Translations under genes and position numbers: made by a program | In this document: positions 31,801 to 34,800 of the stretch, piece by piece | How positions within the stretch are numbered: the first letter of the stretch is position 1 | How the letters are laid out: every line of letters starts with the position of its first letter | The notes under the pieces: generated by a model | What the model was told of the DNA's origin: nothing | Databases searched by the model: none | The model's input: only the letters and a program-made list of their open reading frames with translations | Assembly (NCBI RefSeq): GCF_964340395.1 | Contig: NC_135556.1 | Location: 3,830,001-3,894,000 of the forward strand | Direction of reading: 5' to 3' | Length of the DNA stretch: 64,000 nt | From: Glandiceps talaboti | Lineage: Eukaryota > Hemichordata > Enteropneusta > Spengelidae

Positions 31801-34800
31801 ATGTACCTACAATTAAAGGCTATCAGTCTGCCCTCTTTTTCTCTCGCAATTGTGTTTATCCCTAGGAGTTTTGAGTAACATATGATACTACGTTGGAAAA
31901 GTCTTAGTGAGGTCTATAACATACTAAAAGGTTAAAACTGAAAAATAGAATTACCAAATCACAAACACTGAGGTAAACAGAATTGAAAGCCATAGAAGGT
32001 ACATAAGCCCTAACATTTTGCATTCACAGATGCCTTGTATTGTTTGTTTCATTTCGCTTCGTATCGCGCTACCATAAGCCATGTTCATGTAATTTCAGGC
32101 GAAAAATTACACTACGATGACGTATTGACACACACACTGGGAGAACTAGGACGGCACCAAATGTTTTGCTTTGCCTTGTTGTCGCTAACTGCTATACCAG
32201 CTGGAATACAGTCATTCGCCATTGTCTTCACGTTGGCTGAAACAGACTCGTGGTGTAAAGTCCCCGATGATATAACTACTCAGGTATGCGTGTCCAACTT
32301 TACTGCCAGCAATACCAGTTGCGTAGACCAAGTGAAAAATCTAACGATCCCAAAAGAAGAGAGTGGAGATGTTTGCGGATCAGATTGGCAATACAGTAAA
32401 TGTTACCGATATAGTAACATCTCATATGGAGAGGGGTATTCTCTGCAGCGATATGGCGATGACACGATGTATTGTGATCGTGGATGGGAGTATGACAGAT
32501 CAAAATATAAATCAACATTGTCACAAGAGGTAGGCTGAATTATTTTTTATCTTAACTAATATCTAAACCTATCAGCCTTTGTGACTTATATTGAATACAT
32601 CTTCGATAAAAATCAGTAGACTAAAAAGTGGCATTGTATAACTGTAAAACCATTCTCTAGTTACTGTACCAAAATATAGATTCCGACCCGCCTATGACTT
32701 GAATTTGATTATGTTGAAAGTGCGTATAAATCATGTCCTATATTTAGTTTTAGATTTAGTGTGTGACGTGACAGTTACTTTTATGTCCTATAGTTTGATT
32801 TAGTGGGTGACAGTTACTATCTTTATCTCCTATAGTTTGACTTAGTGTGTGACAGTTACTACCTTCATGTCCTATAGTTTGATTTGGTGTGTGACAGTTA
32901 CTACCTTTATGTCCTATAGTTTGATTTAGTGAGTGACAGTTACTACCTTTATGTCCTATAGTTTGACTTAGTGGGTGACAGTTACTACCTTTATGTCCTA
33001 TAGTTTGATTTAGTGTGTGACAGTTACTACCTTTATCTCCTATAGTTTGATTTAGTGTGTGACAGTTACTACCTTAGTGCATTGCTGACTTCTATTGCAT
33101 ACTCCGGGTATCTCGTTGGAAGCATTGCATCGGGAATGGTCCTGGACAAGTAGGTTCTTTTATTATACTTGCAATATTTTATATCACAACATTGTTGTCA
33201 CCTGAGTTCAATGATACGTCTTATTAAACTATCCTGAACTCAAAGCATCAACGTCATTTTAATTCCTCACTCGACAAGGCTTTTGACGACAGGAGGGGCA
33301 TATGGATAAATTTAATGAAACAATACTATAATATATATTTTTGACTTAAAGTCCATTTTGATGACAGTCCGTGATTCACTTCATCACAAAACATTGATTT
33401 TTCCACTATTAATTTATTTAGACATTCTATCCATGGTTTTATTTCCAAAGATTGTACATTAATTATCGTTTACAAATAACTTGAATAAACAGCTGTAAAT
33501 ATTAGCAGAACTTATTAGATTTTAAACCTGCATTAGCTGCAACTAGGATATTTTCTTCATCAACTAACCAAAGATATACTCTAAAACATGGTCAATTAAT
33601 TACCAAACGCACTGTATCTGTTAATTAATAGTTAATAATATATGTATCTAGTGTAGTGGAAACTTTAAATCTTGAGCGAATGTTTTCATCATGTAAAAAC
33701 TGTACAGGTGTAACTTGAGTATTATGTTTTCAATCAATGTTCGCCGGAACACTGTAAATAACATGTACATTTAAGGATCATACAACTTCAACCATCTGGT
33801 CAGTTGAGATTGTTGTTTTACTCATTAGATAAGAGCATTTTTATTGCTGAACACAAGAGGATTTATTTATATTCTGCTTTTAAAACATCCCTCAATAACA
33901 ATCATGCTGTGTTCAGCAGTAAAAGTGTTGTTATCTATCAAGTAAAACAACAACCTAAACTTGCAAAATGATCGACTCTGAATGTAAATGTATATGTTAC
34001 AGATAGTCTTCTGGCGAATATTGCCTGTTCTAGCTGTAATTAGACATGATTGCATATGTTAACCAGTGGTCGATACTATCCATAAGCAGTACAGAAACAG
34101 GGTGAAACAGTGATCACCATTGATGGCGCTGATTTAGGATGCGGACCCAAAAAGTGTTTGATTTGATTTAGGTTATGCAATACTGTTCATGGTGTATGAT
34201 ATAACAAGTAAGTTATTATACCTAACACAGGTGATGCAATACTGTTCAGGGTGTATGATATTACTAGTAAGTTATTATACCTAACACAGGTGATGCGATA
34301 CTGTTCAGGGTGTATGATATTACTAGTAAGTTATTATACCTAACACAGGTGATGCAATACTGTTCATTGTGTATGATATTGTTAGTAAGTTATTATACCT
34401 AACACAGGTGATGCAATACTGTTCATGGTGTATGATATTACTAGTAAGTTATTATACCTAACACAGGTGATGCAATACTGTTCATTGTGTATGATATTGT
34501 TAGTAAGTTATTATACCTAACACAGGTGATGCAATACTGTTCATGGTGTATGATATTGTTAGTAAGTTATTATACCTAACACAGGTGATGTGATACTGTT
34601 CAGGGTGTATGATATTACTAGTAAGTTATTGTACCTAACACAGGTGATGTAATACTGTTCAAGGTGTATGATATTACTAGTAAGTTATTATACCTAACAC
34701 AGGTGATGCAATACTGTTCATTGTGTATGATATTGTTAGTAAGTTATTATACCTAACACAGGTGATGCAATACTGTTCAAGGTGTATGATATTACTAGTA

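Follow-up and report, generated by a model that had tools for sequence, protein, structure and literature searches.

How splicing settles on one acceptor when near-identical ones follow each other at intervals of a few dozen bases has long been asked. The window, the whole stretch of 64,000 nucleotides of DNA that was analyzed, contains an SLC22 gene in which a single junction offers a natural series of seven acceptors, and each wrong choice would be readable as 42-nt steps with a stop codon. Comparable structures are known from amphioxus as mirages, which are tandem repeats lying across 3′ or 5′ exon–intron boundaries with splice signals in many copies; they have been described in Adh3, TnC, the globins BflGb6 and BflGb9, and PGBD5 (PMC3087553, PMC3902484).

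The 42-bp array and its authentic acceptor

TRF placed the array at 32753–33075 with a period of 42, 7.6 copies, 91% matches, and a score of 528; when the surrounding 800 bp were dinucleotide-shuffled 300 times, the score peaked at 42. Six complete units on the forward strand occupy 32794–33045 and start at 32794, 32836, 32878, 32920, 32962, and 33004. Each opens with 30 nt that repeat the beginning of exon 3 exactly or almost exactly and closes with 12 nt of intron tail, the last letters of which are CCTATAG. A degenerate unit at the 5′ edge (32748–32793, with an approximate start set by eye) supplies the first decoy acceptor, CCTATAG, at its end, and this motif is present at all six decoys as well as at the authentic acceptor. 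Read in the coding frame, units 1 to 5 give FDLVGDSYYLYLL (32794–32835), FDLVCDSYYLHVL (32836–32877), FDLVCDSYYLYVL (32878–32919), FDLVSDSYYLYVL (32920–32961), and FDLVGDSYYLYVL (32962–33003), each closed by a stop and a terminal decoy acceptor. The tail of unit 6 (33004–33045), CTTTATCTCCTATAG, is the authentic acceptor of exon 3. All six units follow the pattern FDLV-x-DSYYL-x-x-L-stop, in which the stop is the TAG of the unit's own terminal acceptor. The exon part is found a seventh time at 33046, and this copy is the only one that runs on into exon 3, which encodes FDLVCDSYYLSALLTSIAYSGYLVGSIASGMVLD plus 2 nt (33046–33149, forward strand, 104 nt) and is directly followed by a GTAGGT donor. 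The original prediction of a 42-bp unit repeated about seven times, composed of a CCTATAG junction and about 30 nt of coding sequence and reaching to 33149, is thus confirmed in unit, copy number, and end coordinate. The six units differ from one another at 2 to 5 of 42 positions, the point changes forming a mosaic pattern, and unit 6 equals exon 3 exactly across its 30 exon-like bases. Donor-like hexamers occur in three of the six units (GTGAGT at 32929–32934 in unit 4; GTGGGT at 32803 and 32971). When the 415-bp array was used as a query, a single matching place was found in the 590-Mb assembly, with very common words skipped and one candidate scored.

The exon upstream of the array (32099–32529, forward strand) was placed by homology and ends in phase 0 at CAAGAG|gtaggc. 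It is called exon 2, and the exon behind the array exon 3, after the numbering of the original prediction; the first coding exon of the gene was not found. Eight further forward-strand exons follow at 35232–35386, 37672–37840, 38618–38771, 39405–39523, 39947–40167, 40896–41010, 41886–42095, and 42223–42337. With splice sites assigned by eye, the 10 joined exons (32099 to 42337) form a single open frame of 596 codons with GT–AG introns, ending in TGA. The deduced protein matches human OCTN2 with an E value of 6.4e-88 over residues 5–557 of 596, the last exon lying outside the alignment. The gene is therefore predicted to encode an OCTN/OCT-like SLC22 transporter, and the earlier SLC22 assignment is borne out by the open frame, the nearly full-length similarity to OCTN2, and the conserved intron position described below. 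Other repeats also lie in this gene. A 59-bp minisatellite of 16.7 copies (34170–35157), the consensus of which contains a donor-like GTAAGT, fills roughly half of intron 3 and stops 75 bp short of exon 4, and a perfect (TC)n tract 189 bp long (39152–39340) stops 65 bp short of the acceptor at which the exon at 39405 begins.

The last of the near-identical acceptors is most likely the ancestral one, as judged from the following comparisons. The Glu|Phe pair at the array junction aligns with Glu131|Trp132 of OCTN2 in a gap-free stretch of the PDB alignment. In human SLC22A5, intron 1 lies at c.393/394 and exon 2 comprises c.394–497, or 104 nt (PMC13387816). Exon 3 matches this human exon both in the position of its boundary and in its 104-nt length. 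Among 20 paralog stretches fetched from this genome, 12 have a matching exon start right behind an AG, and the pattern was not found within the sequence fetched for the other eight. It is the exon boundary, the exon length, and these 12 paralogs that point to the last acceptor, in agreement with the original prediction, and protein homology suggests that this site is the one normally used. The codon aligned with Cys136 of OCTN2 encodes Gly or Ser in three of the six upstream units, and exon 3 keeps Cys; the upstream units thus appear not to have been kept as coding sequence, as expected of non-coding copies.

Junction copies elsewhere in the genome

Recurrence was assessed with a 24-mer centered on each junction, for which a second copy with at least 18/24 matches was sought within 1 kb or to the end of the stretch. 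The test covered 138 junctions: 19 of the window gene, 42 of SLC22 paralogs, and 77 of myosin genes (47 of 78 matches fetched; 17 of 94 ends dropped for want of a good GT or AG). A nearby second copy was found at 5 of the 138 junctions and at 0 of 138 in a shuffled-flank control (one mononucleotide shuffle per junction); these rates are rough, because the choice of gene families was deliberate, the window had been selected for its array, and the inspection was unblinded. The positives are the window acceptor, one junction in each of two SLC22 paralogs (L022 and L027), and an acceptor and a donor of one myosin gene (L053). L022, the best-matching paralog, has a period of 91 bp and two upstream copies, one of which is without its AG. 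L027 has two copies with a period of 41 bp, and its closely similar neighbor L028 has none, so the copy either arose in L027 or disappeared from L028. The original prediction proposed that the array be sought in paralogs; at the threshold used, junction copies were present at just these 2 of the 12 paralog acceptors, with unit lengths other than 42 bp. TRF alone reported no array across any of the 12 acceptors (20 stretches) and missed both L022 and L027. In L053 (C12:385700–387150), the donor is copied at 50 bp (266/316), the second copy (316) and not the first (266) being the donor used in the 24-mer test, and the next acceptor found (1163) is copied at 142 bp.

Further cases came from outside this count. 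In a myosin gene (L054 with L062, C5:6411900–6413700), the donor is copied 141 bp downstream with GTAAGT intact, which became visible only after the stretch was extended by 521 bp. The 141 nt between the two donors are open in the exon frame; splicing from the second donor would lengthen the product by 47 codons and would not disrupt the reading frame. In L059 (C12:13775650–13776600), at about 789 and +101, the end of the exon is copied into the intron and the decoy GT has been lost; this is a mirage in decay. L057 is borderline, with a 68-bp array that shares only about 5 exon nt and scores 17/24, below the threshold. Three arrays near myosin donors (L050, 1614–1941 and 3140–3326; L061, 1–128) are intronic only and are not mirages. 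In a further small sample, of 14 kinesin ends, 2 reached the threshold and one of these was real, a decayed 56-bp donor array (L063); the other, an acceptor in L064 (18/24 at +572), was a false positive in which two kinesin exons matched with no tandem copy. The kinesin-motor exon matches were many, on contigs C22, C23, C9, C2, C5, C11, C12, C15, and C18, with equal or nearly equal scores and frequently in clusters at a spacing of about 2 kb, a pattern suggestive of amplification (judged by scores and spacing, not by sequence). The window array is the most regular of the mirages seen in this genome.

These junction copies stand on a considerable background of local repeats. Minisatellites with periods of 10–200 make up 11.4% of the window, compared with 7.8% of a 190-kb sample drawn from 19 contigs, one place per contig (10 kb of it N). 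The window also contains, at 20048–20315, 20843–21277, and 22404–22708, arrays whose 23-bp unit includes the palindrome TCGTAATTACGA. With low-complexity words removed, the local-copy rate in introns was 8.5–11.5% at seven offsets of 40–300 nt and 5.6–5.7% at 12 and 24 nt; before this filter, the intron controls include microsatellites. The rate was 3.7% (5/136) at the junction itself and 2.2, 2.2, 3.7, 1.5, and 2.3% in exons at 12, 24, 40, 60, and 80 nt, respectively. The fall toward the exon is not smooth, because the exon rate at 40 nt (5/138 before and 5/135 after low-complexity removal) equals the junction rate. Four of the five cases at this exon offset lie at junctions named here as mirages, and another, L059, was found through this control. 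Overall, the gradient fits a neutral input of tandem duplications combined with selection that grows toward the exon.

Decoy acceptors and the origin of the array

Splicing to any of the six upstream CCTATAG acceptors would lead to an in-frame TAG after 13 codons, and the truncation foreseen in the original prediction is found in every complete upstream unit. Transcripts from any of the six decoys would carry a premature stop and would presumably undergo nonsense-mediated decay. The TAG recurs in every unit because the acceptor itself is TAG, the intron is in phase 0, and the unit length is divisible by three; no selection is needed. A small weight matrix, built from 21 acceptors of this genome of which 12 come from the SLC22 junction itself, gave 9.6 for the authentic site, 10.3 and 9.5 for the decoys before 32836 and 32794, 9.9 for the edge-unit AG before 32754, and 5.9–6.5 for the remaining four decoys. 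Since two decoys and the edge-unit AG score near or above the authentic site, sequence strength does not explain the choice of acceptor. Position beside the full exon and its donor may single out the correct one.

The unit of the SLC22 array spans exon and adjoining intron, and its copies carry the splice signal, which are properties of a mirage. We consider it likely that the array is a neutral tandem duplication of the junction, tolerated because the outermost site still yields normal mRNA. It would have been born by a local tandem duplication with one breakpoint in the intron and one in the exon, 12 nt and 30 nt from the junction, respectively, and may later have been multiplied by slippage or unequal exchange. 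Such an event would add only decoy acceptors to the intron and leave the exon-proximal junction and the whole exon unaltered, so that normal mRNA could still be made from the last acceptor. Splice junctions would be caught repeatedly because intronic tandem duplication is so frequent in this genome. The effect of the array and its decoys most likely lies between neutral and slightly harmful. Of the three options raised in the original prediction, the neutral array is thus the best supported, and the other two, regulated unproductive splicing and movement of the boundary, are rated low.

Regulated unproductive splicing would mean that the decoys purposely divert transcripts to nonsense-mediated decay and that the number of units tunes the transporter level. 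The in-frame TAG in all six upstream units and the two decoys whose scores are close to that of the true acceptor would suit such a role, but the stop follows from the TAG acceptor, the phase, and the 3n unit. Moreover, at the equivalent junction the two paralogs carry units of other lengths (91 bp in L022, 41 bp in L027), and 10 of the 12 paralog acceptors have no copy at the threshold within the fetched stretch, which is short for some; the array is therefore not conserved among paralogs. Conservation of the decoys, which this explanation calls for, was not found in the paralogs compared within this single species. The AG is intact in all six decoys, which could mean maintenance, and recent homogenization explains it equally well. 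We regard regulation of this kind as improbable.

An assembly artefact, either a consensus error or a collapsed or expanded repeat, appears slightly less probable still. Assemblies are known to go wrong at tandem repeats, and this assembly has a mitochondrial contig (C40) in which COX1 occurs three times, 15,435 bp apart; these tandem mitochondrial copies are probably an effect of assembly. Against an artefact at the SLC22 junction stand the mosaic point differences among the units, in place of identity, and the comparable structures, differing in length, in further genes on different contigs, although the copy number could still be off. Least probable, and very unlikely in our view, is an intron gain or boundary movement under way, in which the donor-like GTGAGT and GTGGGT would combine with the acceptors to give 9-nt microexons or a shifted exon start: intron creation from mirage repeats has been proposed for amphioxus globins (PMC3087553) and boundary repeats can form new introns in human paralogs (PMC2812944), but the sequence gives no sign that the donor-like sites are used, and exon 3 starts exactly where the human exon does.

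Comparison with known systems and identity of the host

Interpreted as a mirage, the SLC22 array shares with those of amphioxus the tandem repetition of a junction with splice signals in many copies. In the amphioxus reports, copy number varies, splicing is reportedly undisturbed, and BflGb6 has 3 or 6 units that are 81–100% alike (PMC3087553, PMC3902484). The present case differs in its probable hemichordate host, in its 42-bp unit that brings an in-frame stop in all six copies, in the presence of junction copies in three gene families of one genome, and in being known from the DNA of a single assembly. In human segmental-duplication genes, internal tandem repeats of 30 bp on average can sit at exon–intron boundaries (PMC2812944). 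These are likewise minisatellite-scale units able to occupy such boundaries; they differ among recent paralogs and are able to give rise to new introns or alternative transcripts, whereas here a conserved junction has its copies on the intron side. Intron gain by tandem duplication also begins with an event that copies a splice site, as outlined in PMC3087553 and PMC4974935; in contrast, no new intron is evident here, and an ancestral intron has gained decoy acceptors only. Among the literature matches listed, a scope that leaves out most subscription journals, we found no report of a mirage in any hemichordate.

The original prediction mentioned junction-spanning minisatellites from cephalochordates, which agrees with the amphioxus reports (PMC3087553, PMC3902484); its hint at a cephalochordate host fails on the mitochondrial evidence. 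AAA, AGA, and AGG are absent from eight partly delimited stretches of mitochondrial protein genes. ATA occurs at 4 sites in COX1 and 12 sites in CYTB, mostly where isoleucine presumably stands in other animals, and the anticodon loop of tRNA-Asn is CT-GTT-AA on the minus strand. AUA encodes Ile in echinoderms and hemichordates and Met in chordates (PMC3121625; AUA also PMC2697986), Balanoglossus is without AAA and AGG, and the echinoderm tRNA-Asn loop is CC-GUU-AA (PMC3121625). The ATA usage, the absence of AAA and AGG, and the non-echinoderm loop thus point to an enteropneust hemichordate and not to a cephalochordate. By open frames, CYTB lies between ATP6 and COX3; this placement differs from that in Balanoglossus, where CYTB follows ND5 (PMC2697986).

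It is possible, and we propose it only tentatively, that junction duplication is pervasive and fast-turning in this hemichordate lineage, with a few percent of junctions carrying decoys at stages from birth to decay; the spliceosome would then ignore near-perfect decoys by position, the outermost site winning, and the copies would be raw material for new introns and moved boundaries. The SLC22 array itself is a real and well-preserved mirage, most likely neutral, one of several in its genome, and it probably belongs to a phylum in which no mirage had been found in print, within the literature searched. As far as that literature shows, mirages are thereby extended beyond cephalochordates. The further cases in the same genome involve both kinds of splice site and several stages of decay, and this first rough rate of junction copies makes genome-wide RNA-seq tests possible. 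The value of the SLC22 array lies in the test that it offers of splice-site choice and of the origins of exon boundaries and introns.
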